Assembly (NCBI GenBank): GCA_905221615.1 | Contig: CAJNDT010001302.1 | Coordinates: 389,079-453,078, forward strand | From: Symbiodinium sp. CCMP2592 | Lineage: Eukaryota; Sar; Dinophyceae; Suessiales; Symbiodiniaceae | Reading direction: 5' to 3' | Length of the DNA: 64,000 nucleotides | The notes under the pieces: model-generated | Database searches by the model: none | What the model saw: only the letters and a program-made list of their open reading frames with translations | What the model was told of the DNA's origin: nothing | Translations under genes and position numbers: made by a program | Shown: in pieces, positions 2,294 through 56,343 of the stretch | How positions within the stretch are numbered: the first letter of the stretch is position 1 | Layout of the letters: each line of letters starts with the position of its first letter

Positions 2294-4183
2294 GTTCAGG
2301 GTTTAGCGTTTTTGGGTTAAGAGTTTAGCGGTTTAGGGTGTAGGGCCGGTGTAAGGTAGAATAGGGTTCCAGCGCTCCACTCGGGAAAGCCACGCGAGGT
2401 TCTGGTGTTTCGCCGGCTGGGGGGTGAAACTTATGCAAGCTTCTTCGACTCTTATTACAGGGTTTTTCCTTAGAGTTTAGTTGAAATAGTAGACCGTGAC
2501 AGTTGGAGTAGGGTTTTGGTGTGTATAGAAAAGTCGCATCGCAACATGGGGCCAGAAGGTTGGTGATATCCGCAGTGTGAGTGCGCAGGGACATCTAGGG
2601 CGCTGAGCTGGCTCCCAAAGACTTCAACACCCCATACTTGAGGCAGATGCCTCAAGTGATGATTTGGGGATTCTTACGGTGATTTCTGGTATACTCCGTT
2701 ATGACCTACATATAGAAAGGTTTTGGGGCCTCGGGATATTCAGACTGCTGCGTTACACAATTCAATGCCTAGCCAAGGCCTGGCAGAAAGCTCGGGGGCT
2801 CATGCGAACCAGCCGGGACACGTACGTCAGAAAGATCACCACCCAAACGACGGAGATGGCTCGCAGAGGCAGAACTACCTGACAGGCCACTGAGACCTAG
2901 CAAAACCGAAAATGAAGCAAGTCTGATTACGAGAACTTGCTTGCACCAACCCGAACATACAACGCGCAGACACGCACACAGCCACCTTCGCTTGGGGGGG
3001 GCCCTTCGGCAAGCCCTGCGGTTGCAAGATCCAGGTTTGAATGTCGGGGCTCATGCTCTGGGACTTGTGCTTAAAGTTATCCGGGTCGAATACGGACGCA
3101 ATAATTTGACGATTACCACTGCTACTGTCCGTACTGTGCGTATAGTGAAGTGCAACCCAAAACCTTATTCTAATGATTAAGGCCCCTATATTTGTTCGGA
3201 TACCATTCCTAGAGAAGAAGCCTCTTCCCAGCTCACTCCACCGGCGATGCTCATGAACAGGCTGAGCATCGTTTGCCTTAGCTCATCTCGCCTCTTCTGA
3301 AGTCTCGGGGTCAAAGGTCCATGGTTTAGATAGGTCCGATAGGTGAGCACTAGCTGGACCTCAAAGGAAAGTTTGCCAGCAAAGACCCTTGATTACAAGC
3401 TCATATAGGCATCGGAATAGTGAGCATATACTCCCCCCTTAAATCCCTGTAGAGCTCCACTAAACATCTACCCAAAAAAACCCTCATTCAGACCCCTTTA
3501 CTGCACTGTTTGCAATATTCTGACACCCAAACAATACAACAAGGCCCCTTGATTCATTTCCATCCGAACAGGATGGCTGCTCCCGAACCTGTAGCCCGCA
3601 CAGGTTGGATCGACACAAAGCCGATCAAACCTGCGCGCACCTTCCACAACACATGTACAAACAACACATGTACAAACATCCTTGGTTTTAGGGCTTAGGG
3701 GTTTTTGATGACGCTCACACTGGGGTACAGGAGAGCGGCATTACCCACTCCCAGCGCCGTCATATGCTGATCCATCGTAAGCCACCAGCAGCTTAGGGGC
3801 TGAGGGTTTAGGACCTTTGTGAGTCTTACTCGCAGAAACCCCAAAGCCGCTAACCCAAACCGCCTGCACTTGAATAATGAGACTCTGAATCCTCCTGGCC
3901 ACGGTAGGTCATCGAAGTATCTTCTGGCCGCAGCCACTTCCTTCGGCTTCTTCTGGCGGGGGTGGAACACTTCGTATGTAATGTGCCTCTTATAGCTTAT
4001 AACCCTTGCAATGGTTCTACCAAAGAACACCCCAGAACCCGATGGTATCTTCGGATTTTAGGTTCAGGGTCTGGGGTTCCGGCTCTCATAGCTGAGCATC
4101 GCGGGTTTGGGGCAGATGTGGCCTCACAAAGAGGCCCGAAGCCGACACCCTAATGCCAACCTCGGACCCTACACCCTCTACCT
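2294..4183. other. gene-free telomere-like intergenic sequence
   Basis: Degenerate TTTAGGG/CCCTAAA words are scattered through this stretch (for example near 2300-2345, 3680-3710 and 3790-3810). A partial element of the ~100-bp TIR family H lies in reverse orientation at about 3090-3192. Short open frames here have no protein-like features. Confidence 0.6.
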
Positions 4184-34929: not shown

Positions 34930-36840
34930 GATTGTGCCTGCTGATGCTGAGTCCTACAAGGTCGATCCGAAACACATGCCACACGCGTCTGATTCTGATG
35001 ACGCTCGGCTGCCTTGCATCGTGGAACGGCACCGCGGACCGTTGATGTTGATATTCTCAGTGCAATGTCCGATCTGCCCACGCGTACACACAGGAATCCA
35101 GCCAGGAATCATCAGCATCAAGTGCTGTTGGGACGATCGAACCCAGGATCATCAGCATCAGCAAGCTTAGGCTATGTGAGAAAACAGCCGGGCACCGCTG
35201 CACCACAACCCGGTTCACAGGACCGGCCTTCCTGCCAGATGAAAAAGCAATTTGATGTCGTGCTTGCGGAAGCCTTCTCATGCCTGATTGCCAACCACCG
35301 GGGCTGGGTTCTCGTGCACCAAGCGAATGCTCACGATGCTCGGCCGTCCCTTGGGCTGGCGAAGCCCCAATCTAGTCAGTTGAACATTCTGCAAAATCGT
35401 GAAGCCCCAACCCACTGATGCTGGTGATGCTCGGCTGCCCGGTAGCTCATTGAAAACTCTGCAAAAGGTGAATCCCATCATGTTGGGCAGGTGAAGCCAG
35501 AACCGGCTGATGCTGGTGATGCTCGGCTGCTCGCTGGCAAGTTGAAAATTCTGCAAAAAGGTGAACCCAACCCACTGATGCTGATCATGTTCGGCTGTCG
35601 TCCTGCCGGGTGAAGCCAGAACCCGCTGATGCACCTTTTTGTTTCACTGAGCAACCGAGCAGCCGAGCATCACCAGCATCAGCGGGTTCTGGCTTCACCT
35701 GCTCAGACGGCAGCCGAGCATCCTTGCAGAATGAGCCACCGAGCAGCCGAGCATCACCAGCATCAGCGGGTCGTGGGTTCACCCGCCCAGACGACAGCCG
35801 AAGTCAATCAGCATGAGTGGGTTGGGGTTCACCTTCTTGCAAAATTTCAACTAGCCAGCGAGCAGCCGAGCATCACCAGCATCAGCGGGTTCTGGCTTCA
35901 CCCGCCCAGACGACAGCCGAACACGATCAGCATCAGTGGGTTGGGATTCATCTTCTTGCTGTTTCAATGAGCCACCGAACAGCCGAGCATCACCAGCATC
36001 AGTGGGTTCTGGCTTCATCCGCTCAGACGGCAGCCGAACTCGATCAGCATCAGTGGGTTGGGGTTCACCTTCTTGCAGAATGTTCACTGAGCAACCGAGC
36101 AGCCGAGCATCACCAGCATCAGCGGGTTCTGGCTTCACCTGCTCAGACGGCAGCCGAGCATGATCAGCATCACTGGGTTGGGGTTCACCTCCTTGCAGAA
36201 TTCTCAATGAGCCACCGAGCAGCCGAGCATCACCAGCATCAGCGGGTCGTGGGTTCACCCGCCCAGACGACAGCCGAACTCGATCAGCATCAGTGGGTTG
36301 GGGTTCACTTTCTTGCAAAATTTCAAGTAGCAAGCGAGCACCCGAGCATCACCAGCATCAGCGGGTTCTCGCTTCACCTGCTCAGACGGCAACCGAACAT
36401 GATCAGCATCACTGGGTTGGGGTTCACCTCCTTGCAGAATTCTCAATGAGCCACCGAGCAGCCGAGCATCACCAGCATCAGCGGGTCGTGGGTTCACCCG
36501 CCCAGACGACAGCCGAAGTCGATCAGCATGAGTGGGTTGGGGTTCACCTTCTTGCAAAATTTCAACTAGCCAGCGAGCAGCCGAGCATCACCAGCATCAG
36601 CGGGTTCTGGCTTCACCCGCCCAGACGACAGCCGAACACGATCAGCATCAGTGGGTTGGGATTCATCTTCTTGCAGAGTTTTCAGCTAGCCAGCGAGCAG
36701 CCGAGCATCACCAGCATCAGCGGGTTCTGGCTTCACTCGCCGAGTTGGCAGCCGAACATGATCAGCATTAGTGGGTCGGGGTTCACCTTCTTGCAGAATC
36801 TACGTCGATGAAGCCCCGACCCCCTGATGCTGATGTCGCT
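34930..36840. repeat. ~120-bp minisatellite with inverted blocks
   Basis: From 35645 to about 36800 there are roughly ten plus-orientation units of 118-120 bp (starts near 35661, 35744, 35863, 35981, 36101, 36221, 36340, 36460, 36579, 36699). Each unit has two related halves, one with AGCATCACCAGCATCAGCGG and one with GATCAGCATCANTGGGTTGG. From about 35370 to 35640 two to three units run in reverse, more decayed pieces extend back to about 34930, and a short reverse piece ends the array at 36808-36835. Period lengths are not exact multiples of three, and long frames on both strands are repeat translations. Confidence 0.9.
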
Positions 36841-41902: not shown

Positions 41903-43553
41903 CTAGTCTTCAATGGGGTTAAGCATGATACAGAAATACATGCAAGCACGCAACAGATCTTCCTCTCTCCCTCGCTCTCTCGCAGACTCAAGGTCTGTCA
42001 GCCGTATGAGCGAGCCCACACGAAGCCCCGAAACCGGCCAGGGCGGCGTCAGCTCCCAGATCTCAGGGAAGCAGGCAGCAATGGCAAAGAGGGGCTGCAG
42101 AGGAACCGAGTTCACAAGGATCTGTGCCTGAGGGAGGGTGTTCTAGGCAGATTGGGGTTTAGGGCTCAGGGGCTTCGAGGTTTCGCTTCTTTTGGATTCT
42201 ACCGGGTTTCGTGCCTGGGGGAGTTTAGGGTTCGTTTTGGATGCCTCTACTTGAGCTGCAAAACCAGTAGATTCCGTTGAAGGATCAAACATTGAGGCTC
42301 CAAATGCTTCAGGCCTCCTGCAGCCGCGGGTTCCCGAAGCAAAGTCGTGGAGGGCTCAGGGGTGACACTACTCAGGGTTTATGCAGGGAATGAATGCATC
42401 AGTTCTTTTGGCTCTGAGGTTTTTCCCAGAGCAGCGAGGCCTCATCGTACTGGATCGCCCGCACCACGGCCTTGGCGACCTTCGTGGGCGTCGTATATCC
42501 GAGGTGTCTGCCCGTCTCAGACACGGTGGCGCCGATCCTACCCGAGGCAGAAGCGGCCATCCCGACGTCCTCCACCAAGCCGGGGCTAACGCAGTGAAAC
42601 GTCACGGGTTTCTTTTCCAAGCGCATCTCCAGGCGGAGAGACATCGTAAAGCTGGTCAGGGCGGCCTTTGTGGCGGCATAGATGCCACCATATGCCACGC
42701 AGCAGCCCCCTGCCGTTGAAGAGATGTTGACCACATGGGCTCGCTTCTCTTTCAGCAACTCCGGCAAGAAGCTCTTCGTGAGGTGGAGAGTGCCTGAAAG
42801 GTTGGTCTGGAGCATTGCATCCATGGCCTGGTTGTCCATGGACTCGAAGAAGGCGTACCTCATCATGCCCAGAACTCCAAGAGACAAGTTGCACACCTCG
42901 GGATCCACTAACCTGGGGTCTCTGGGTTGGGAACAAGGGAAAGCTGGACAGGAAACAAAGGAAAATGAACTGCAAGGCCGCCGAAACACGCAAGGACTCC
43001 CGCATTGTTGATGAGGACTTGGCACGGGCCGAAGGTGGTGGCCTGGCGTAGGAAATCGTTTCGGCTCTCACCGTCCGTCACGTCCAACTTCACCGTCAGG
43101 ACCTTCACCTGGCAGCTTCTCCACAAGAAGAAAAGGCTCTAGCTTTGCAAATTTCACTGCCCCCTGCCCTCTGCCCTGCCCTGCTTGCCTTCGGGAAGTG
43201 TTTCGCAAGGTCGGCCTTGACCTCTTCCAGCTTCTCCACGCGCCGGGCACCCAAGACAAGCTTCTCCGCGCCCTCAGCCGCCAGCGCATGCGCGATGAAC
43301 ACCCCCAGACCATCGGAGGCGCCGGTGACTGCGCAGCACAGCCCCTTCAGCTCGTGCACACGCTTTGGGAAGAATGTCACGTACAACAACACCGCCAGCA
43401 GTGACAGCAAGAGAGCCCCACCTGCCACCGATGAACATCGAAACCTCTACACCTAAAGGGCAGTGATCCCCTGAACCGAGAATTCTAGCCTACCGCCTCT
43501 TCTGCACACCCGGGCAGGCCTGTGCAGCATAACAGCCACAGGAGCAGCCACAT
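41903..43553 (-). CDS. membrane-anchored short-chain dehydrogenase/reductase, copy 1
   Basis: NAD(P)-dependent oxidoreductase of the classical SDR family; the substrate is not predictable (DHRS7- or ketosphinganine-reductase-like layout). Reconstructed exons: 43553-43520, 43421-43189, 43108-42998, 42896-42441, and 42127 onward. The introns are GC-AG (98 bp), GC-AG (80), GT-AG (101) and GC-AG (313); all but the first are phase 0. The protein begins MWLLLWLLCCTGGALLLSLL, an N-terminal membrane anchor, then TGASDGLG (cofactor loop, ~44-51), NNAG (~123-126), NISS, and the catalytic Y-x-x-x-K as YAATK (~199-203). The last exon supplies AQILVNSVPLQPLFAIAACF, whose start aligns with the paralogue. 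The true stop is uncertain: the frame closes at 41903, but alignment with copy 2 fails after the WE near 42053, so a further small exon may exist. Intron 3 is absent from copy 2, and its acceptor choice is tentative. Confidence 0.75.
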
Positions 43554-45498: not shown

Positions 45499-46990
45499 CT
45501 ACGTCCTCACTAAACCCTTTTGCATCAGGACGTGCGCGATGCTAACTCCACAAACAAAACCGCGAACCCTGAATCTCAAAACCCGAACCTCCGCTGCCCT
45601 GTACGCTAAACGCGAAACCCTGAAGCCTTGAAGCCCTAAACCCAGGCCCAGCATCACGATCTCCCAGAAGCTCGGGAAGAAGGCTGTGAGAGCAAAAACA
45701 GGCTGCAGTCGATTGGAGTTGACCACAACCTCGGCCTCTCTGGTGGATCCAGAATGCGAATATCTGTCTACACTAGTTCAGGCTCGTGATGGGATTCTAC
45801 AGGGTTGGGGGCTTTGCACTTAATAGAATGTGAGCGGTCTTCATACCGTTTCTATAGGGGGTCATAGCGCACGATGGGGTTTCCTATTCAAGTTGTCAAG
45901 TGTCGAGCGTGGATATGTAAGCGGTGTCGGCCAACCGACGCAGCAGGGCTTAAGCATTGGGTTGCACAGGTTAAGACGGTTAAACCAAAAAAACGGTTAG
46001 GACTTCACAGGTGCAGTTTCTCCGGCCTCATCGTACTGAATTGCCCGCACAACAGCTCGTGCCACTTCTTCCGGCGTCGTGTAACCCACATTTTTACCAC
46101 TCTCCTCAATGGTGGTTCCAGTGTTCTGGCAAGCCCTTTCTGCTAGCCCTGTGTCTTTAACAAGACCAGGGCTCACGCAATGAACTGTCACGGGGCTCTG
46201 CTCTAGAAGCATCTCTAGGCGAAGAGACAGCGAAAAACTGCTCAGCGCCGCCTTCGTAGCGGCGTAGATGCTGCTGTAGGGGACGGGGAGCTTCGAGGTG
46301 ATGGACGATATATTCACCACATGGGCTTGCTTTTGCTTGAAGAGCTCTGGCAAAAAGAGCTTTGTGAGGCGCAACGTGCCACACAGGTTGGTTTGCAGCA
46401 TAGCGTCCAATGCCTCTGTGGGGAACGATTCGAAGAAACAAGAGGTCATGACCCCTGCATTGTTGATGAGGACTTGGCACGGGCCGAAGGTGGTGGCCTG
46501 GCGTAGGAAGTCGTTTCGGCTCTCACCGTCCGTCACGTCCAACTTCACCGTCAGGACCTTCACCTGGCAGCTTCTCCATAAGAAAAGGCTCTATATAGCT
46601 TTGCAAACTTCACTGCCCCCTGCCCTCTGCCCTCTGCCCTGCTTGCCTTCGGGAAGTGTTTCGCAAGGTCGGCCTTGACCTCTTCCAGCTTCTCCACGCG
46701 CCGGGCACCCAAGACAAGCTTCTCCGCGCCCTCAGCCGCCAGCGCATGCGCGATGAACACCCCCAGACCATCGGAGGCGCCGGTGACTGCGCAGCACAGC
46801 CCCTTCAGCTCGTGCACACGCTTTGGGAAAAACGTCAGGTACAGCAACACCGCCAGCACCGACAGCAAGAGAGCCCCACCTGCAACTCCAGGGGCAAATC
46901 CAAGAGCTTCAGCTCAAAGGCCAAGCAAGAAAACCCGATTGCAGACACACCCGCACCTGTATAGGCCACCAGCCGCAGAAGCAGCCACAT
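45499..46990 (-). CDS. membrane-anchored short-chain dehydrogenase/reductase, copy 2
   Basis: Tandem paralogue of the gene at 41903-43553, same strand. Exons: 46990-46957, 46879-46647, 46563-46027, and 45735 onward. The introns are GT-AG (77 bp), GC-AG (83) and GC-AG (291). The N-terminus MWLLLRLVAYTGGALLLSVL is a membrane anchor, followed by TGASDGLG (~44-51), NNAG (~123-126), NISS and YAATK (~189-193). The region corresponding to copy 1 exons 3 and 4 is one uninterrupted exon here. The final exon gives AEVVVNSNRLQPVFALTAFF, aligning with copy 1. Exon 2 is nearly identical to copy 1 while the catalytic half has diverged clearly. The C-terminus after FWE is unresolved: the open frame runs to 45499 through telomere-like sequence and is probably not all coding. 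Confidence 0.77.
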
Positions 46991-47309: not shown

Positions 47310-47490
47310 AGGTCGTAGTCGTCGTCGTACTAGTACTGGTACTGGTACTGGTACTAGTACAAGTACTAGTACTAGTACTCTAGTACTATAGTACTAGTAC
47401 TAGTAGTAGTAGTAGTAGTAGTAGTAGTACTACTACTACTACTACTACTAGTACTAGTAGTGGTAGTAGTAGTAGTAGTAGCAGCAGCTT
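47310..47490. repeat. TAG/GTAC triplet and tetranucleotide array at the retroelement 3' end
   Basis: GTC triplets, TACTGG/TACTAG hexamers (47330-47400), TAG triplets (47400-47428), CTA triplets (47428-47450), then TAG and CAG triplets to 47488, where the retroelement 3' UTR begins. On the element's own strand its 3' end therefore runs into CTA/GCT triplets, not poly(A). Confidence 0.9.
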
Positions 47491-47570
47491 CGAGCTTCGA
47501 TCGCAGCGGATGTCCGATCCACCAAGCGTCGGTTTGGAGCAAGCTCACATGAGCCCGGTGCCTTGTGCAC

Positions 47571-47586
47571 GCAGCCATTTGGCTGC
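47571..47586. other. palindrome in the retroelement 3' UTR
   Basis: GCAGCCA-TT-TGGCTGC, about 75 nt past the stop codon at 47657 and before the terminal triplet repeats. It could form a stem-loop in the RNA 3' end, the part LINE reverse transcriptases recognise; this role is inferred. Confidence 0.4.
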
Positions 47587-47656
47587 CTCAAAGAGAGGTA
47601 CTCTCTACCCATCACCGTTCCGAGGAACCAAGCATGATGGTTGAAGTGGTATCACA

Positions 47657-48487
47657 TTAAAGTTCGATGCACTCGATGCGTTCAGTAACCCGTTGGTAGA
47701 GCAACAAGTAGCAGCACTTGTGGAGCCATGTGGGCAAACTGGTGATGCGTTGAGCTGCCCGTCTATCGTCACAGAGCCAGTATTCAGAGCCGAGGCGTAG
47801 TAGGACCTGATAGTGTCCAGATCTCGGGTGAGCACCATGGTGACATACGATAGCAACACAACGATAGGCCTCCTGCTGCATTTGAACACCAGAGCCGCTG
47901 AAGACAGGCACCTGTATCATCGCATCCACATCAATGGACGTGTGTAGTTTGGCCACTCGGCCAGCTCCGGCACTGAATCGTCCAAGCTGAAGCATGAGCA
48001 CCGAGGGAGCCACCGTGAGAGCATGTGCATTCTCTTGAGTCATCCACTCATTGACAAGCTTCTGCACCTTGATGATCACAAGTCCCGGTGGGTAGGCAGG
48101 AAGTGGCAGCAAGATTGGCTGAGTGGTGAGCCCCATATCCACTTGTACAAAGATCCCCTCGCAAAGCTTTCTGGACACCCAAACGCCTGTGACCAAGGAA
48201 ACATGGTACTTATTACAAAGAAAAGCAGCGAATTCCACAACATCATGTTGACGATGAGGATCCGACCAGTCGGCAATGAGGTCACTCCAAGTCATATCCC
48301 TTGTCAGGTGCATCTCAACAGCTCGAGGTCGAACGAGGAGCTGACGAAACCAGTAAGCGCACTGCCCCAGACAGGAAAAGCTTGCATCCCCAGAAAGTTC
48401 AGCCGCCCATAGCAAAGCCTGCACAAAGCTGTTCATGTAGCATGCATTGGTGTGATTACCAAGGACGAGCCTGAGTGTACCATACAT
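47657..48487 (-). CDS. C-terminal USP (peptidase C19) domain of the retroelement
   Basis: About 277 residues from the ATG at 48487. The Cys box reads GNHTNACYMNSFVQALLWA (catalytic Cys ~2334 of the long frame), matching the family pattern N-x-C-Y-M-N-S. HDVVEFAAFL is the usual Q/H-D-x-x-E-F box. The His box is SGHYQVLLRL followed by YWLCDDRRA, giving the catalytic His and Asp, and the domain ends in a YLLLYQR-like strand. USPs cleave ubiquitin from proteins; here the enzyme could protect element proteins from proteasomal turnover (inference). It may be made as part of the long frame, after a frameshift, or by reinitiation, because the overlapping ORF stops at 48499, 11 nt before this ATG. Shorter than many cellular USPs. 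Confidence 0.8.
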   Translation of the reverse strand: MYGTLRLVLGNHTNACYMNSFVQALLWAAELSGDASFSCLGQCAYWFRQLLVRPRAVEMHLTRDMTWSDLIADWSDPHRQHDVVEFAAFLCNKYHVSLVTGVWVSRKLCEGIFVQVDMGLTTQPILLPLPAYPPGLVIIKVQKLVNEWMTQENAHALTVAPSVLMLQLGRFSAGAGRVAKLHTSIDVDAMIQVPVFSGSGVQMQQEAYRCVAIVCHHGAHPRSGHYQVLLRLGSEYWLCDDRRAAQRITSLPTWLHKCCYLLLYQRVTERIECIEL

Positions 48488-51400
48488 GGACTCCTCATTC
48501 ACTTCGGTCGAAGAAGGTCGCGAAGCTTCTGGATGGCAGGGCTGTCCTTGAGGCTTTCCTTTCGGTAAGCTACTCCAACAAGCTGCCAGACGCTGTTGCC
48601 CTGAAGTTCGAGCATCTTGTTCCAGGCCTTGATCCCCTCGCCCCTTGTTGAGATATCCATTTTGAACACCGCTTGCGACTCCATTGTTTCTGTGAGTCGT
48701 CGTGTGCACTTGAACCGGGTGACCGTCTCGCCTTTGAGAGCCGCATATATCTCCTCCAGCAGTGGAACCAGGGCTTCTGTGGTCAGAGCTGCCCTGTCTT
48801 TGTCCTCTTCGAGACAACGCAAACGCGGATTCCAGCGTTGGTAGCGCCATTTGCGCTGGCTGTCCAGCCAGCCTTTCTCCGTCACCGTCTTTAGGAGGGT
48901 CTCGTCCTTCATGGTGGCCTCGAGTCTGTTGGCCAACTCTCGTATCATGGCCAATGCCATGACCGTGCGTAGCGGTTGCCATCCCGGGCCCCATTCCGGG
49001 TTTTCCTCCTGTTTCTTTTTGAAGTGCGCCGCTGTCCTGTGAAGAAACGGCATGATCGAATCCGCACCTGCCGTCAGCCAAAGGACCAGTGAGTGATCTT
49101 GTTTGATCACTCTTATCTCCTCGTCCTGCCTCAGCACAACCCTTGCGAGAGAAGTAAGAGTCAAGCCGCCCGCTCCGAAGGTTGATTGGCTCGCTGCTGC
49201 CTGCTGGCTGGTATGTGCATCTCTGGCTTCCGGCCTCCTCCTCTTGGGCTTGTTCTCGCGGAGCTCCCCGAAGAACTCGGTCAGCTCGTCGTCTTCGAAC
49301 ATCCTGGTCCATGAGCACCAAGACTGCACATTGCCATGCCACCGTACATTTATTGAGATGTCCCCGCCAGTCCTTGCACGCGACTCCACAGTAATGGCAC
49401 GTCGGACTAGCCGTGGCTGTGCGAACAACAAGCTTCTGAATGCTGGTATTCAGGGTGTCAAGAATGTCTTTGTGGGAGTACTGATAGTGTCGTTTGAGAG
49501 TTCGATGCGAAGCGACCCACTGCCCACAAATGGCACATGTTTGCAGAAGCTGTGTTGTGACGGCCTTGAGCGGGATGAATGCATTGATGCCCTTCTGCAC
49601 TGCAACCAACACTTCAGGTAGCTGACAAATGGTCAAAGTGGTGTTTTGATCCGGCGGTGCCGGCTCAGCCAACAGCACTGGTGGAGGCTCAGCTGGTGTG
49701 TTTGCAAAGTCAGGATCTTCATGATCAACCATGGAAACAATCAGCACAGGACAGGAATTGTTGTTAATGTGGACCGCCAGCGATTGCCACTTCGAAAATT
49801 TGCGATCACAGAACTTGCAGATCGGCAAGCCGTTCTTGGAGTGTCGTGCTTTGTTGAAGATTTCTTTTTGTTCGTCCACAATGTTGTGTGACCGTCTGGC
49901 GTGTGTTTTCAGCGCCGCAGAGGTAGTAAAGGATTCGTCACAGACAGGGCAAGCCCACACAGCGGACTCAATACCTTCAGGCTCAGGCTCACTCCGTTGC
50001 GACAACCTGTCGGAGACATGTTGGAACCATGGTTCATCTCGCATCCAATCCGGTTCTGAGGTGTCCGCTTGTCGTTCACGATCATGGGTTTTCTGCAGGA
50101 GGCTGACCATCATCTGCACACCAAACTTATCCATGATGGTTGCATGCGAATCGCCAGTGATATGAGCCTGATTGTTGGTGACGGCCCTGACGTGTCTCAT
50201 CATGTGTCGCTGTGCTTCCTGCAGCTGGTCACCGGATAAGCCACAACAGTGGAGACCGTAGGTGAGAGTGCTGAGTACGCAGCTGCGCCAGACCTGCAGC
50301 TTGTAACCCACGCTAAGCCTGCGAGAGTGAAGTACCGATGCCATAGCCCACCGCCGCTTGTTGGCCTTGGCAATGCGATGCCTCATGGACTGGAGTTCGA
50401 AGGCCCCGTACGATATGATGAGTCCCAGGTACTCAGCTTGTGGCACAAGTGCAACCCAGGCCGAGGGATCTCGCGGCGAAAGCAGCAGTCGCCTTTCCTG
50501 GTCATGTTTTCGAACATATTCTTTGTGAACTCGACTCCGGAGACTCCCCACCACCTTCAGGATGGCTTTGGTCTTCTCGTAGTTCACCTTCATATGGAAA
50601 GTCTTGAAGACACCCAGGGCTACGCGAACCTCCATCATGCATCGCTCAAGCTCGACGTAAGTTTCGAACCTCCACTTCAAGTGTGAGTCGTCGGCGTACA
50701 AAGTAGCATGTTCCTTCGACCAGCGTGGGCCAAGTTTACGGTCAAGAGACGCACACATGAGTGAGGTAAACAAGCTCCAGAGTATGGGAGACGCCACGCA
50801 TCCTTGCCTCCATCCCCATTGAGGTTGGAGGGAGCCCGAACAGTCTCTATGATGAAAGATGTACCGTACTTGTGAGAGCCAGACCAGTAGTATGTCTTGA
50901 ACACAGATCGGGATGTTCGCAAAGTCCATGGCTTCCTTTAGGAAATCCCAACGAACTAGGTCGAAAGCGGCAGACATGTCGAGGCTCAGCTGCAGTCCTC
51001 CACTGCACTGTTTCTTTTGTTCTCCAGCTCGTTGTTGGTGTGGATTCAGTCGATCATTTCCGCATTCAGCTCGCACCAAAGCACAGTGAGCAAACACTCG
51101 TCTGAGTGCCGTGCTGGTGCCACGCCCCTGCACATATGCAGTCTGAGGATATTGTTTGATCAAAGTCTCTGCTGCAGAACGGGCCTGTCGAAGAAGTAGC
51201 GTCATCACGCACTTGCCCAGAGGATCCTGTAGCCCAATGGGTCGAAGATCCAAGGGCGATTGCATCCTCCCATGTGCCTTGGGGAGTAGCGAGACAGTGG
51301 CCTCAGACCATCCTTCGTCCACCTGAGGCGGCAAAGGATACTGATTCCAGCCATGGTTGACTTCCTCGGTCACGGTCGGGGCAATCTGTTGTGCACAGGC

Positions 51401-54400
51401 CTTCCAGAGGATGGCCGCCGCCTTCCCGCGAGGGACAGCCTTACCAGGGTGGATCCTGAGCATTTGATCTCGAAGTTCCGAAGCATCAATGGTGTCCGAG
51501 ATATCTGATCCAATCGGACCCTGCCATCCTCCGTCCACAGCTGAGGTTCCGTACCGATCACCGTAGGCCTGCAGTATCCAATCCATTTCCTCGGTCGTGC
51601 TAATGATGTGCCCATTTCGATGCAGCTGCAGACGTTTGCGCGGAACCTTGGGCGTCATCTGCTTGACAATTCGCCAAAGGCCGGAGTAGTGCCCCTTGTC
51701 AGCGGCCTCCTGAGCTTGTTGTAAGAGGTCGTCACGTTTCTGCTTAGTTCGCTGTCTCGACCGGTCCTTGTGAGCTTTGTGTGCTCGCTGAAAGCGAACC
51801 CATAGCTTCCATGCCGTAGCAATGCCCTGCATGGTAAATTTCTGTTTCCGCATTTCACGGAAAATTGCCCACATGTGCCTGGCAGAGTTGGCCAGCTCGA
51901 GGGGTTGATCCGGAGGAAGACTGGGTCGTGGAGGGGCCGGGTAATGTCGGACCGCAACCTGTAACAGGAGATCATTGAGGTGGCTGATCGGTGTAGGCAT
52001 TGATTCTTGTATATCCTCTCGGAGCTGAACAAGGGAGGTGGGCGCCTTTGGTTGCCGTAGGTCTTGCAGTAGTCGATCCCTGTCAAAAGCAGGCTGGGTC
52101 TTCCGAGCTTGAGCAAGGATTCTTCGAGGCACCGGCACATACGCCACCACAGGATGGTGGTTGCCGCCTTGTCGCCATTGGGCTACAGGAAACTTGTCAA
52201 GGATAGCAGCCTTCTTGGCAACGCGATTAGCCTGTCTTTGTCGCACCACTATGTAGTCAATCTGAGATGCCAGAGAGCCAAAAGTGAAAGTGGCTAGCTG
52301 ACCATGCTTAGGGCGCGTCCATGTGTTAAGTATACACACGGGCAGGGCTCGCAGAACGTCTTGATGATCCTGCAGGTCTTTGTACTGGAGAGGGTTGGCA
52401 GGTAGAACGCAAGGCCCACAAAGGGCCTGATGCGGAATCATCCCGCAGTTGAAGTCCCCTGCGAACACCAAAGGATTTCGTTGAGGCAAAGCAAGAAGGC
52501 ACTTCTGCAATTTCACTAGCAGTTGGTGGCGCCTTTCGTAGACTCCTTCAGCAGTGCTGCTGGAGTATTGATACCAAGTGATGATGTCCAAGTGAACTTG
52601 CCCGACCGGTAACCTAACGTGGAGAATGCGACCGGGATGCACAATGTTAAATTGGATGTCATCGGCCTTGGCGTGCTTTGCCGCAATCATCACCAGCAGT
52701 CCTGTCGCTCGGTCTTCTTTCTGGATTCCATGACAATGCACATAATGAAAATCACGAGTGCTCCAATTTGCATCAAAAGACCATTTAGTCTCCTGGACCA
52801 GTACGAGGTCGTACTGGTGGAGGCGCACATAGGTCTGCAGTTCTTGGTACACTTGTGCCGTGAGGCCACCTGAGTTCCATGTGAGAATCTTCCAAGAATC
52901 GGGTCCTGGTTGGCTGCTAGCCGTGGTCTTAGGCACATGCTGTGGTGGTACATGTCGTGGCTGGAACCAGGTATGCGGACGCCAGCGACCGCGAAAATGA
53001 GCTCCACCTTCTCTACAAGAGCGGGCATACGCCCTAGCATATGATCTCTTACCACTTCTCGAGAGTGTACTCTCAGCTTCGGGCGGCAAAGCCCTCCGAG
53101 AGCTGACTGGCTTCGCCGGTAGGTTGAGCCCACCGACTCCAGACATCGCGCCAGCTGAGATGTCAACCCTCGCATCTGTGTTCACAGAAAGTGTAGATCT
53201 GACGCTAACCAGGAGAATCAGCAGAAGAATTTTGTGATGACTGCTGCCTGGCCTGTGAACACCACCGGACTTGGGACCGGTGCGGCTGAGCGAAGTTCCC
53301 CGTGAGGTAGTGGAAGTAGTTGCTGGGCCTGAATGTTCGATTGCAATTGAGGGTCTCTGTGGATCCATATCATAGAGGTTGACAATGCTAACCAAAAGGA
53401 GAGCTGCCTGCATGTTCAAGAGCAAGAGAATCAACGAGAGCCGGAGCTGAAGCTGTTGGCTGCCGGTGTGGTACCTGTCCAGTTGAGGCGTGTACACTGA
53501 AATCGGCCAAAGGAGATAGCAATGTACCTCACTGTGTTGTAAGTCACCCGCCGTCCGTGCAGTGAGGATCATCTTGTGGTACCTGGCCAGCGAAGTGGTA
53601 AAAGCTGACAGTGATAAAACCATGTATGCTTCACCCTGCTGGTACACCGTCTCGCGCAGCAGTCTTTTATCCAGCAAGCCCACATGCTCGGTCGATGCCA
53701 GTATATCAGGCATGTCAGGCACAACCCGGTACCAGGGACTTGTTCCCATCAGGGGGTGAGGGCTTTTACAAGTCCTACTCAGGTCTATCGGATCGACGGT
53801 GCCTAAGCGAGAGCAAGGGCACTCCAGGTTACTTGACTCGAAAGCATAAGACATGCAAAGACAGGTGGTGATCAAATGAGGCTCAAGCTTCCGGTTCGTG
53901 GGAGTCATCTCATTCGTAGTCACCGTGTTGGCCCGCTTTTTGCGCCATGGAGCCTTGGCGATCGCCTTGGAAGTTGGCCGGAGAGGGGGCGTTGTAGGTG
54001 CCGCTGAGGTCGTAGCTGCAGAAACCGAGGTCAGATTTGTTGTCAGAGGCATCGCAGTGGAAGTCGTGGTTGAGGGGGCTGCAGTGGAGAGACCTCCACC
54101 CGGCTCGTCATCATTGGCCTCATCCTCCTCGTTGACCACGAGAACATTGGGATGTCGTCGGAAGTCTCCACTCAGCGGCTCAATGCGTACCAGCATGTCA
54201 CCCATGGTCCTGTAGTGAAAAGGCACTAGAACCAGCATCTCGCCCACGTTGACTCCGTCCTCCGCAAAGGCCTGTGCCAAAGCCCCCGCAGCCCGGTGCG
54301 AAATGAGTTGCACCGTTTGTACTGCCTGTGGTGGCGGCGGTCCTCGTGGCTCTGGTGTGCCACCTGGTGTATGCGGGGCTGACGTTCCCTCCGGGGGTCC

Positions 54401-55450
54401 ATGTTCGGCAGTGATGTCGTCCGAGTCGATGTCCCCTATGTCGTCCGACTCTTCTATGCCCTCCGAGGCTTCCATGGACTCCCTGTCGAGGTTCTGGCCA
54501 TCCGCCCTACCTGTGCTCGGCATGTTGATCTGGCTCGTGCACCGAGCCTTTCGCAGAGCGAACCAGCTGTGAGCCGAGCTTCCCTGGAGCATTCCCCTCA
54601 AGCTTGCATACTGCCAGACATGTCGCACAAGTTGCAGAAAGTGCATGTGCTGTCTCCTAGAGCTTGCAGTCACTTGCAGAAGAATGTGCAAGGGGCACTT
54701 GACATGTGTCCAGAGCCCATGCAGTGCAGCCAGGTAGGTCCTGTATCCAAGGCTGAGAAGTCTGAGAAGTCTCCCTTTAGCCCTGCGTCTTCGGTAGCGC
54801 CTGCGGCTCGCCGGGGCAAAGCGGAAGCGCCATCTTCTACTTGATCTACCCAGGCATACGGTCCCTCCACGGGTGTTGTAGGGCAGGTCAGGGGTCCATC
54901 TGGTTAAGGTCCAGTGTCGTGGGCCGCGGTTCACCTTCAGGCCAGAAGTTGGGTAGCCAGCTGGGGAAGTGCAGTCGTACCCATATGTATAGTTCGCGCT
55001 CATCGGGAGGGAAAGGTGATTGCCGGGCTGCTTGCAGTGCCCGTCCGGGGTGGCAGTTTGCAGTCCACTCCATGTCCCACCTATTAAAGAAGGTGAGGTT
55101 GTCAATATAACCTCCATGTGCTCTGGCCCGTTCAAGCATGAGTTGGCCCATGGCCGACAGAAATTGCAGTCGCTGACGTGGCCTAGCAAAGAGCTCCCTG
55201 GCGTAAGTGGCCTCCAAGTCCACTGTGATCTTGTTATGGTTCGGGATCCATGTGTCAGAGCATTCGCAAGAATATTCAGGTTCAGTTGCTGGGTCCAGCC
55301 AGTTCGCCATACAGCTATCAGGAGCAGCAATGGAAACATTCGAGAAGTCGTAGCAGTAGCCTCAAACGCAATGCCGGAAAATCTTGGTTTTCCCTGGAAC
55401 ACGGCAGCGCCTGAGCGTGCTTCGGCAGCCTGCTGCCAATGGCTGGCCAA
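47657..55450 (-). CDS. retrotransposon polyprotein: EN, RT, zinc fingers, USP
   Basis: 2597-codon open frame; the first ~310 codons are probably not all translated, and the ATG at 54523 (MPSTGRADGQN) is a credible start. An acidic patch lies at ~325-355. Endonuclease ~850-1105: ILTWNSGG, LVQETKW, FAGDFNCG, SQIDYIVV and NHHPVV; the usual SDH pair reads NHH. Reverse transcriptase ~1390-1760: PLDLRPIGLQDPLGK, LSLDMSAAFD, GWRQGCVASPIL, LYADDSHLK, EKTKAIL, AEYLGL. Four Cys2His2-like fingers (~1833-2035): CPVCDESF...H, CKFCDRKF, CAICGQWV...H, CHYCGVAC. Codons ~2050-2315 are low-complexity Gly/Arg/Gln and look out of frame, because another frame there is protein-like (48499-49302). A USP domain fills ~2320-2597. 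No stop interrupts the frame. Confidence 0.85.
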   Translation of the reverse strand: MASHWQQAAEARSGAAVFQGKPRFSGIAFEATATTSRMFPLLLLIAVWRTGWTQQLNLNILANALTHGSRTITRSQWTWRPLTPGSSLLGHVSDCNFCRPWANSCLNGPEHMEVILTTSPSLIGGTWSGLQTATPDGHCKQPGNHLSLPMSANYTYGYDCTSPAGYPTSGLKVNRGPRHWTLTRWTPDLPYNTRGGTVCLGRSSRRWRFRFAPASRRRYRRRRAKGRLLRLLSLGYRTYLAALHGLWTHVKCPLHILLQVTASSRRQHMHFLQLVRHVWQYASLRGMLQGSSAHSWFALRKARCTSQINMPSTGRADGQNLDRESMEASEGIEESDDIGDIDSDDITAEHGPPEGTSAPHTPGGTPEPRGPPPPQAVQTVQLISHRAAGALAQAFAEDGVNVGEMLVLVPFHYRTMGDMLVRIEPLSGDFRRHPNVLVVNEEDEANDDEPGGGLSTAAPSTTTSTAMPLTTNLTSVSAATTSAAPTTPPLRPTSKAIAKAPWRKKRANTVTTNEMTPTNRKLEPHLITTCLCMSYAFESSNLECPCSRLGTVDPIDLSRTCKSPHPLMGTSPWYRVVPDMPDILASTEHVGLLDKRLLRETVYQQGEAYMVLSLSAFTTSLARYHKMILTARTAGDLQHSEVHCYLLWPISVYTPQLDRYHTGSQQLQLRLSLILLLLNMQAALLLVSIVNLYDMDPQRPSIAIEHSGPATTSTTSRGTSLSRTGPKSGGVHRPGSSHHKILLLILLVSVRSTLSVNTDARVDISAGAMSGVGGLNLPAKPVSSRRALPPEAESTLSRSGKRSYARAYARSCREGGAHFRGRWRPHTWFQPRHVPPQHVPKTTASSQPGPDSWKILTWNSGGLTAQVYQELQTYVRLHQYDLVLVQETKWSFDANWSTRDFHYVHCHGIQKEDRATGLLVMIAAKHAKADDIQFNIVHPGRILHVRLPVGQVHLDIITWYQYSSSTAEGVYERRHQLLVKLQKCLLALPQRNPLVFAGDFNCGMIPHQALCGPCVLPANPLQYKDLQDHQDVLRALPVCILNTWTRPKHGQLATFTFGSLASQIDYIVVRQRQANRVAKKAAILDKFPVAQWRQGGNHHPVVAYVPVPRRILAQARKTQPAFDRDRLLQDLRQPKAPTSLVQLREDIQESMPTPISHLNDLLLQVAVRHYPAPPRPSLPPDQPLELANSARHMWAIFREMRKQKFTMQGIATAWKLWVRFQRAHKAHKDRSRQRTKQKRDDLLQQAQEAADKGHYSGLWRIVKQMTPKVPRKRLQLHRNGHIISTTEEMDWILQAYGDRYGTSAVDGGWQGPIGSDISDTIDASELRDQMLRIHPGKAVPRGKAAAILWKACAQQIAPTVTEEVNHGWNQYPLPPQVDEGWSEATVSLLPKAHGRMQSPLDLRPIGLQDPLGKCVMTLLLRQARSAAETLIKQYPQTAYVQGRGTSTALRRVFAHCALVRAECGNDRLNPHQQRAGEQKKQCSGGLQLSLDMSAAFDLVRWDFLKEAMDFANIPICVQDILLVWLSQVRYIFHHRDCSGSLQPQWGWRQGCVASPILWSLFTSLMCASLDRKLGPRWSKEHATLYADDSHLKWRFETYVELERCMMEVRVALGVFKTFHMKVNYEKTKAILKVVGSLRSRVHKEYVRKHDQERRLLLSPRDPSAWVALVPQAEYLGLIISYGAFELQSMRHRIAKANKRRWAMASVLHSRRLSVGYKLQVWRSCVLSTLTYGLHCCGLSGDQLQEAQRHMMRHVRAVTNNQAHITGDSHATIMDKFGVQMMVSLLQKTHDRERQADTSEPDWMRDEPWFQHVSDRLSQRSEPEPEGIESAVWACPVCDESFTTSAALKTHARRSHNIVDEQKEIFNKARHSKNGLPICKFCDRKFSKWQSLAVHINNNSCPVLIVSMVDHEDPDFANTPAEPPPVLLAEPAPPDQNTTLTICQLPEVLVAVQKGINAFIPLKAVTTQLLQTCAICGQWVASHRTLKRHYQYSHKDILDTLNTSIQKLVVRTATASPTCHYCGVACKDWRGHLNKCTVAWQCAVLVLMDQDVRRRRADRVLRGAPREQAQEEEAGSQRCTYQPAGSSEPINLRSGRLDSYFSRKGCAEAGRGDKSDQTRSLTGPLADGRCGFDHAVSSQDSGALQKETGGKPGMGPGMATATHGHGIGHDTRVGQQTRGHHEGRDPPKDGDGERLAGQPAQMALPTLESAFALSRRGQRQGSSDHRSPGSTAGGDICGSQRRDGHPVQVHTTTHRNNGVASGVQNGYLNKGRGDQGLEQDARTSGQQRLAACWSSLPKGKPQGQPCHPEASRPSSTEVNEESMYGTLRLVLGNHTNACYMNSFVQALLWAAELSGDASFSCLGQCAYWFRQLLVRPRAVEMHLTRDMTWSDLIADWSDPHRQHDVVEFAAFLCNKYHVSLVTGVWVSRKLCEGIFVQVDMGLTTQPILLPLPAYPPGLVIIKVQKLVNEWMTQENAHALTVAPSVLMLQLGRFSAGAGRVAKLHTSIDVDAMIQVPVFSGSGVQMQQEAYRCVAIVCHHGAHPRSGHYQVLLRLGSEYWLCDDRRAAQRITSLPTWLHKCCYLLLYQRVTERIECIEL
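48499..49302 (-). CDS. overlapping ORF inside the retrotransposon, 267 codons
   Basis: Starts at ATG 49302 (MFEDDELTEFFGELRENKPK) in the +1 frame relative to the main frame, just after the fourth zinc finger, and stops at TGA 48501-48499. Its composition is protein-like: an acidic start, a basic KPKRRR patch, then amphipathic helices (EEIRVIKQDHSLVLW, MALAMIRELANRLEA, LVPLLEEIYAALKG). The overlapping stretch of the main frame is low-complexity. Either this is the true continuation reached by a +1 shift, with a -1 shift back to the USP, or a separate internal ORF, or the result of two compensating indels. No family recognised. Confidence 0.65.
   Translation of the reverse strand: MFEDDELTEFFGELRENKPKRRRPEARDAHTSQQAAASQSTFGAGGLTLTSLARVVLRQDEEIRVIKQDHSLVLWLTAGADSIMPFLHRTAAHFKKKQEENPEWGPGWQPLRTVMALAMIRELANRLEATMKDETLLKTVTEKGWLDSQRKWRYQRWNPRLRCLEEDKDRAALTTEALVPLLEEIYAALKGETVTRFKCTRRLTETMESQAVFKMDISTRGEGIKAWNKMLELQGNSVWQLVGVAYRKESLKDSPAIQKLRDLLRPK
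54888..55310 (-). CDS. candidate upstream ORF of the retrotransposon, 140 codons
   Basis: ATG at 55310, reading MANWLDPATEPEYSCECSDT and ending LDLNQMDP at 54888. Its frame differs from the long frame that overlaps it, and its composition is more protein-like: Cys pair CEC, helices LEATYARELFARPRQRLQ, and aromatic-rich FNRWDMEWTANCHPG and FPSWLPNFWPEG. It could be a small ORF1. The opposing long-frame stretch is Arg-rich and irregular. No family recognised. Confidence 0.5.
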   Translation of the reverse strand: MANWLDPATEPEYSCECSDTWIPNHNKITVDLEATYARELFARPRQRLQFLSAMGQLMLERARAHGGYIDNLTFFNRWDMEWTANCHPGRALQAARQSPFPPDERELYIWVRLHFPSWLPNFWPEGEPRPTTLDLNQMDP

Positions 55451-55496
55451 TCTACCTTCACGGTTTGGCCTGGGGTGGCCTTCAGCCGAGATGCTT

Positions 55497-55582
55497 GTAG
55501 TAGCAGCAGTAGTAGCAGTAGTAGCAGTAGTAGCAGTAGTAGTAGTCGTCGTCGTCGTCGTAGTAGTAGTAGTACTAGTAAT
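55497..55582. repeat. compound TAG/CAG/GTC triplet repeat at the retroelement 5' end
   Basis: TAG-CAG triplets, five GTC triplets, then TAG and TACTAG. The TAG-GTC-TAG core closely resembles 47185-47225, beyond the opposite end of the element. Confidence 0.9.
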
Positions 55583-56343
55583 ACAATACTGGTGGTAGCA
55601 GTGGCAGTGCCAGTGGCATAGCCGTGCTTAACTTCTAAACCCTTTTACAACTGGGGCTATGCCCTGGCAAACCGAGGCGCCGACGAACCCCAGACCCGAA
55701 ACTCATCACAAGCTCTCCAAATCCTGCAACCTGAGACCTCACGCAGGCCTGAAGCCCTATGGCCCTAAGTATTTCAAGTGCCCTGCAGTCGGGCAGAAAA
55801 CCACGAATCCCAGAACCTCAAGGCACACATAGCCACCATAGCCTGAAAATCTGCACACGAATAACACCCCAAAGGGGTCGAAGTTGTAGTTAGTAGAATT
55901 TGTGGTGCAGGGTCAGGGGCCGACGAGACTATGACCCCTGGTGGCGCAAGTCCTTCAAAGCCCAAGAGTTCAGCATCACGTCGAGCCTTCGGGCATAAAG
56001 GCTGCGCACGGGGTTTGTTTAATGGGACTCAGAGTTTAAGGTAGAAAGTTTTAAGGCCAAAGGTTGGGGCTACTGTAACAAGTTTAGCATGCGACTACTC
56101 TGTCTGCGGGTGGGAGGTCTCTTTGGTGCTTCCAGCGGCACCGAACGTTTTGCATGATTTTTATGCCTTCTGGCAGGACTCTCTGGGTGGAGCCGGAGGG
56201 CTGAAACTGGTGAAGTCCTTGGGGCTCTGACGTGATTGTGCCTCAGCTCAGGAAGGTGCGGTTGGTAGAGAGACTGACTCATTTCCTTGCTGACTACCAT
56301 GACCAAAAACATGCTCGAGCAATTGCAGAGTTCAACTCATCTC
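55583..56343. other. gene-free intergenic sequence
   Basis: CCCTTTTACAACTGGGG junction-type word at 55639 and weak telomere-like decay. No gene supported. Confidence 0.5.

Follow-up and report, generated by a model that had tools for sequence, protein, structure and literature searches.

A long open reading frame on the minus strand of a 64-kb window (the whole stretch of DNA analyzed here) ends in what a preliminary description took to be a ubiquitin-specific protease (USP), carried in the same frame as the endonuclease (EN) and reverse transcriptase (RT) of a LINE-type retrotransposon. Does this USP belong to the element, and, if it does, what might a retrotransposon gain from it? The stretch that raised the question, 47657-48487 on the minus strand, comprises the final 276 codons and the stop of the frame, here called frame A, which in the ORF listing stays open for 2656 codons (47657-55627).

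Organization of the element

Frame A encodes, in order, an N-terminal part, the EN, the RT, zinc fingers, a linker, and the USP; ORF3 and ORF0 overlap it in other frames. The features are as follows.

47480..55496, minus strand: LINE body, approximate; the 3′ end is where homology stops and the 5′ end is the microsatellite edge
47657..55627, minus strand: frame A, 2656 aa; the first ~45 codons are mostly microsatellite
54888..55310, minus strand: ORF0, 140 aa plus stop, +2 frame relative to frame A
52238..52885, minus strand: AP-type endonuclease, Exo_endo_phos, residues 915-1130 (Pfam, 42.6 bits, cut-off 24.5)
50423..51250, minus strand: reverse transcriptase, RVT_1, residues 1460-1735 (Pfam, 50.5 bits, cut-off 29.6)
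49346..49951, minus strand: zinc-finger region, four Cys/His clusters, residues 1893-2094 (zf-C2H2, 28.5 bits, cut-off 25.2, for the best stretch, the first cluster; the other three clusters come from sequence inspection)
48494..49300, minus strand: linker of frame A from zinc fingers to USP, dual-coding with ORF3; stop-free, against 8.4 stops expected here from shuffles that preserve ORF3
48499..49302, minus strand: ORF3, 267 aa plus stop, +1 frame relative to frame A
49151..49168, minus strand: PIP-box-like RLDSYF, frame A residues 2154-2159 (motif scan)
47696..48460, minus strand: USP (peptidase C19), residues 2390-2644 (Pfam UCH and residue conservation)
about 47480..47656, minus strand: 3′ untranslated region with predicted RNA structure (alignment of 10 copies)
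47315..47481, no strand: trinucleotide (GTA/TAC) microsatellite at the 3′ boundary (tandem-repeat scan)
55497..55580, no strand: trinucleotide (GTA) microsatellite at the 5′ boundary (tandem-repeat scan)

By its coding content and its relatives, the window locus is a member of an endonuclease-type LINE group that is both large and old. Exo_endo_phos and RVT_1 lie in one frame, the RT motif YADD is present (50687-50698, minus strand), and many dispersed copies share a 3′ end; nucleotide homology with L002, L003, L031, and L032 stops at 47471-47480, L003 and L031 being one element. The counterpart of frame A is open in all five further full-length elements that were fetched (2665-3224 aa; in one element the length spans Ns), and in all five the window polyprotein aligns in a single open frame from the EN or earlier through to the USP, with USP identity of 36-85%. 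The window RT gave no match at E 0.01 among solved structures, and Rfam at its gathering threshold gave zero matches in the 64-kb window.

The USP domain and its predicted catalytic residues

The boxes of peptidase C19 named in the preliminary description can all be located in the window frame on the minus strand: the Cys box NACYMNS at 48428-48448, the D-x-x-E-F box as DVVEF at 48230-48244, and the His/Asp box as SGHYQV at 47804-47821 and CDDRR at 47759-47773. The first holds the predicted catalytic Cys, and the last two the predicted His and Asp pair. When the C19 profile comparison suggested there was run, the last 276 codons matched Pfam UCH at E 1.1e-19 with 71.5 bits, far above the cut-off of 23.9, over profile positions 4-254 of 254, and 25 of 25 aligned USP copies match UCH at E 0.001.

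Is the domain likely to be an enzyme? Among 37 USPs picked as readable, the catalytic Cys is present in 36, and the oxyanion-position Asn, the His [GH(Y/N)], and the Asp pair (DD) are each present in all 37, including copies down to about 25% identity. Outside this set are two near-duplicates (L004 and L025) and L006, L008, L013, L015, L017, L021, and L028, which have stops or are truncated; several of these have their stops within the USP. In the window Cys box, NHTNACYMNS, an Asn that we take to be the oxyanion residue of USPs lies five residues before the Cys; the distance is six in four copies (L009-L012). The single copy lacking the Cys, L038, and the reduced middle region of the domain are what one would expect of a dead ubiquitin-binding module, but the retention of the catalytic positions at such divergence makes that reading very improbable.

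A profile of the 25 USP copies, compared with solved structures, matched USP46 best (E 1.7e-16) and then USP12 (E 9.6e-16), followed by USP7 and USP2. The LINE USP is ~265 aa long; its two boxes align with those of the solved USPs but lie closer together than in USP46, by about 50 residues. No zinc-binding CxxC pair was found in the window USP or in 23 of the 25 copies. Such a pair in the USP fingers is common, not universal, and we take the USP without it as a variant, CxxC being no defining feature of C19. The short domain and the missing CxxC suggest that ubiquitin binding may differ from the textbook case. We infer that the USP is an active deubiquitinase.

Recurrence of the USP in the genome

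Copies were sought in the window's own genome, the one genome covered (1.098 Gb). The 21-base dinoflagellate spliced leader has 429 exact occurrences there, and its reversed control has 0, which shows the host to be a dinoflagellate, in keeping with the preliminary description and its proposal to search dinoflagellate genomes; the exact 12-base end of the leader was found in 0 of 64 loci, and once in the window, distant from the element. The USP search yielded at least 140 scored matches, window included, from 2154 first-look candidates. All 140 score at E < 1e-25, and a good number lie in frames of 2000-3800 codons; some are near-duplicates, and LINE membership is established for part of them.

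The pairing of USP with RT was followed through the best-scored matches (100 for RT, 145 for ORF3, and 140 for USP). Among the matches listed, 42 of the 48 close RT matches (RT identity of at least 47%, two being fragments of one broken copy) have a USP no more than 4 kb downstream, and 44 of the 48 are paired with ORF3. One of the six close RTs without a scored USP, C5207, has a decayed UCH match. At RT identities of 32-40%, a USP accompanies at least 12 of 52 matches and ORF3 at least 18 of 52. We considered that the members of this more distant group without a scored USP might truly do without one, and rejected the idea: of five such elements opened, all five have the USP, in the RT frame in four and frame-disrupted in L039. 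In twelve lower-ranking USP places (32-36% identity), chosen by eye at steps down the list and including several close relatives of each other, ORF3 was found upstream of the USP each time, at a spacing of at most 50 bases in eleven and at most 270 in the broken L050. In these counts L031-L035, which are longer fetches of the elements in L003, L005, L009, L011, and L026, were counted once.

The window by itself would fit a host USP having become joined to a LINE at a single place, by chance or through misassembly, and the preliminary description had allowed that a USP missing from other copies would point to such an accident. The search for further copies found it in many, with the same order and frame; given at least 140 genomic matches, this recurrence, and the purifying selection described below, we reject an accidental one-locus fusion, to which we give next to no credence.

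Searches of a viral contig collection with the USP sequence and with the USP and ORF3 profiles found no relatives, nor did a search of a separate genome-contig collection with the RT. By eye, L036 (bases 3427-3843) shows another USP-like 3′ fragment behind the first element, as though one truncated copy had landed beside another.

Selection on the USP and its descent

In the 12 of 13 copy pairs for which it could be computed, dN/dS of the USP is 0.09-0.34, and by this measure the USP is under purifying selection and selectively maintained. Over 40 of 46 candidate loci, distances between USPs and between ORF3s are strongly correlated (Mantel r 0.93; 0 of 999 permutations), so the USP is inherited along with the element. 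In a small tree, 21 LINE USPs separate from five USPs found elsewhere in the genome, and these five cluster together (support of 0.99). The tree is unrooted, its deep nodes are weak, and the split host USP genes L054, L055, and L058 were left out of it. As drawn, it would suit a single capture. Profile scores, recurring order, catalytic residues, and purifying selection thus bear out the original proposal that a LINE carries a USP in frame with its EN and RT.

Other USPs of this genome sit in different company. On other contigs, in L056 with L063 and in L060 with L064, a different USP starts long ORFs with AAA/PIF1-type helicase matches after it; at the two USP matches the frames measure 1631 and 1813 aa. 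Weak matches to Helitron_like_N (19.3 bits, cut-off 28.9) and Rep were found in L063 as well. These USPs group away from the LINE USPs, and theirs is apparently a second, independent capture, by a Helitron-like element. Further UCH matches in frames of ~1750-1870 aa sit in tandem on some contigs.

A second gene nested in the linker

The single frame of the preliminary description stands, but an overlapping conserved gene between the zinc fingers and the USP, ORF3, had been missed. ORF3 lies wholly within the zinc-finger-to-USP stretch, in the +1 frame relative to frame A. It was matched in 46 of 47 distinct loci, the exception, L013, being at a contig edge. The profiles for the second set of loci were built with the help of L036-L040, whose E-values are flattered accordingly, and without L041-L052. 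ORF3 is in the +1 frame at 38 loci (23 of the 29 first-set loci and 15 of the 17 second-set loci). At the other eight it is in the frame of the USP (L006, L008, L030, L039, and L050) or at +2 (L007, L012, and L021), as expected for decayed copies; these eight were kept in the denominators and left out of the +1 shuffle test.

Over the aligned ORF3, frame A has zero stops in 37 of the 38 +1 loci and one stop in L014. Shuffling the synonymous codons of ORF3 predicts 4.8-10.3 stops for loci of the first set and 3.7-12.5 for those of the second, and a stop-free result came up in no more than 0.7% of shuffles. The control was the pair of alternative frames over the EN and RT of four elements, which carry 2-18 stops per 270 codons; they are mildly stop-poor (z of -2.7 to +1.2, mostly below zero) and never empty. 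ORF3 itself has dN/dS of at most 0.20 in the 11 of 13 pairs where it is defined. Read in frame A, the linker changes mainly at its own first codon position, which is the third position of ORF3, and it is therefore the sequence of ORF3 that selection holds, while the amino acids of frame A in the overlap are nearly free to drift. The simplest reason for a frame that is kept open and is otherwise free is that ribosomes read through it to the USP. Thus, the USP is probably translated as a fusion of RT, zinc fingers, linker, and USP. With both frames kept open, we rejected the idea that the zinc-finger-to-USP stretch is frame-shifted coding of one protein.

One can also envision that, in some copies at least, the USP is made separately, by re-initiation or frameshift after ORF3, and that frame A is open for some other cause. 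The aligned end of +1 ORF3 lies 3-57 bases before the aligned USP start, which would suit termination-reinitiation, and 17 of 38 intact loci have a Met no more than 15 codons upstream of the USP (in the window, MYGTLRL at 48467-48487). The other 21 of the 38 have no Met within that distance, however, the stop depletion of frame A over ORF3 goes much beyond that of the EN and RT control, and a conserved frame-A motif (see below) lies inside the overlap. We consider separate production distinctly unlikely and continue with the fusion.

Pfam gave nothing above its cut-offs for ORF3, and no solved structure was a credible relative; matches to HAD (15.1-15.6 bits, cut-off 27, in one of 14 members), RstA (17 bits, cut-off 330), and a Tudor solved structure (E 0.16) were judged to be chance. 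By eye, a basic, NLS-like KPKRRRPE lies near its start, and distant copies have GKGKGK- or RGG-like basic stretches, which suggests nucleic-acid binding. Whatever its product, the arrangement is a same-strand overprinting both long and old, in which two frames have been kept over about 270 codons in elements whose RTs share about one third of residues.

Ends of the element and surrounding sequence

ORF0, near the 5′ end, is conserved ("WIPNHNKI..YARELFARP") in the five full-length elements examined, L034 having been left out of the stop test for its unreadable 5′ part. Frame A is stop-free over ORF0 in 5 of 5, where only 1.0-4.0 stops are expected; the depletion is significant in three (P of 0.000, 0.0025, and 0.043; 0.20 and 0.31 in the others). 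Codon-position counts indicate that ORF0, not frame A, is the held frame over this overlap. No Pfam match to ORF0 was found at E 0.1.

The 5′ part also has its own history, the window element being a 5′-module chimera. Homology to L031, the closest other full-length relative fetched (85%), ends at 53189; from there upstream to 55608, parts match L035 at 74-77% nucleotide identity, and the RT of L035 is only about 50% identical to the window RT in protein.

At the 3′ end, the predicted fold of the untranslated region has 28 pairs, 12 of them with changes on both sides among 10 sequences, and is perhaps the structure by which the RT recognizes its template. By eye, 14 of 17 copies run directly from their 3′ end into CTN-type repeats; of the other three, two have very short repeats and one has none. 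The microsatellites at the ends may reflect either a target preference or a repeat-like 3′ tail, and, lying on both sides of the element, they would mask any target-site duplications.

Elsewhere in the window, 42995-43425 and 46450-46883 are 95% identical in DNA, and beside them lie minus-strand frames (42399-43067 and 45997-46590) that look short-chain dehydrogenase-like by eye. At 35730-36819 there is a tandem array of ~118-base units, 86-94% alike, with several frames open on both strands.

A PIP-box-like motif in the linker

Within the first third of the ORF3 overlap, the frame-A linker of 18 of 21 near relatives carries the pattern [ILMV]xx[YF][FY], once each, where shuffles that preserve ORF3 expect 0.55 of 21. 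The third, non-coding frame carries it in 2 of 21 near and 1 of 15 distant elements. The 18 copies are related and so not independent; their linkers can share as little as 21-32% between subfamilies. The PIP-box consensus is Q-x-x-(I/L/M)-x-x-(F/Y)-(F/Y). The hydrophobic and double-aromatic core is found in the 18 of 21; the leading Q is present in some (QGRIGSYF) and missing in the window (SGRLDSYF). Variants include RLDSYF in the window and QGRIGSYFGK, QQRPLAVYFGK, AQGSIALYFGK, and SISSFFGA elsewhere. Among distant elements the pattern occurs in 1 of 15, with 0.28 expected. With the motif missing from 3 of the 21 near relatives and from 14 of the 15 distant elements, a link to PCNA is unlikely as a role of the whole group.

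Possible roles of the USP

Our preferred reading, taken with moderate confidence, is that a working deubiquitinase is tethered to the retrotransposition complex and counters ubiquitin-dependent restriction. We imagine that the USP would cleave ubiquitin while joined to the RT, travelling with the RT complex, and that its presumed substrate would be host-attached ubiquitin, either on proteins of the element or on insertion-site factors. The benefit to the element would be escape from ubiquitin-dependent loss or block of the complex. Host pressure of this kind is real elsewhere: in the cited part of PMC5570191, L1 ORF1p is polyubiquitylated and then degraded by a host pathway.

In the window's subgroup, the PIP-like motif might in addition keep the USP close to PCNA, the sliding clamp. 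There the USP could lift ubiquitin restriction, clamp-linked or of the Rad18 type, while target-primed reverse transcription proceeds. The best-known Rad18 substrate is PCNA. The fuller scheme, in which a PIP-tethered deubiquitinase would reverse Rad18-type restriction and ORF3, perhaps an RNA-binding substitute for ORF1p, is overprinted in the linker, is tentative and on balance doubtful. If true, one piece of DNA would combine a nested gene, a clamp tether, and an accessory enzyme, and both the enzyme and the nested arrangement would have survived deep divergence. For L1, the excerpted text of PMC6203705 reports restriction by Rad18 that needs its Rad6-binding (E3-related) domain, and that of PMC10830420 reports a PIP box in ORF2p that binds PCNA, an interaction required for retrotransposition.

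Might the USP instead act mainly on host proteins at the target site, such as chromatin or replication factors, opening the site or steering repair? Dinoflagellates have a low histone content, which makes histone ubiquitin a weaker target, and the PIP-like motif upstream of the USP, which would suit such a role, is nearly confined to the near group. The preliminary description had conjectured that the domain could shield element proteins or change host chromatin marks. Where present, the motif directs attention to the replication clamp or the complex of the element itself at least as much as to histones. In favor of a host-directed role, protease domains of transposable elements may activate DNA-repair factors, as the cited section of PMC2836005 suggests. 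We regard a mainly host-directed USP as unlikely.

The single, very long, multi-module frame might also suggest a processing protease that cuts a giant polyprotein, or a ubiquitin-like fusion, into parts. USPs, however, cleave after ubiquitin-type C-termini, and the Pfam matches of the polyprotein, taken up to E 1, include no ubiquitin-like domain, which makes processing quite improbable. Returning to the tethered deubiquitinase, the LINE group appears to have fixed a counter-enzyme in its own replication protein, and the implied arms race could be tested with the purified domain. In mammals, host ubiquitin systems restrict LINE-1, according to the parts of PMC5570191 and PMC6203705 cited. Dinoflagellate genomes are described as very rich in retrotransposons (PMC12014239, in excerpt), and the USP-bearing group may be one of the larger LINE groups in dinoflagellates.

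Comparison with known systems

Ubiquitin- and SUMO-pathway proteases in mobile elements are already known; a LINE with a USP is apparently undescribed, none having appeared among the papers listed in searches of the open-access literature, which does not take in Repbase or subscription papers. Dualen/RandI LINEs carry a cysteine protease. OTU or Ulp1 proteases occur in Ginger1, Mutator, and some Helitrons, as stated in the cited section of PMC2836005. These elements resemble ours in bearing a cysteine protease of the ubiquitin/SUMO pathway and differ from it in protease family, which here is C19; leaving aside the Dualen/RandI LINEs, the cases cited are DNA transposons.

Closer in protease family is the Trichomonas vaginalis protein XP_001314237.1, which combines transposase_11 with Peptidase C19 (PMC2836005, in the section cited). 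Compared by that description only, it shares the fusion of C19 to a mobile-element enzyme; the enzyme is, however, a DNA transposase in one named protein, with no LINE. The catalytic domains of USP12/USP46 and USP7 have the Cys and His boxes and the overall order of the LINE USP, whereas the latter is compact, with fewer residues between the boxes and the CxxC mostly absent.

LINE-1 ORF2p is not known to carry a protease. Human LINE-1 ORF2p is nevertheless like the window element in joining EN and RT in one protein and, in the excerpt of PMC10830420, in a PIP box that recruits PCNA. The L1 PIP box lies between EN and RT, whereas the motif found here lies between the zinc fingers and the USP, and of the two, only the window element has a second gene nested in its linker.
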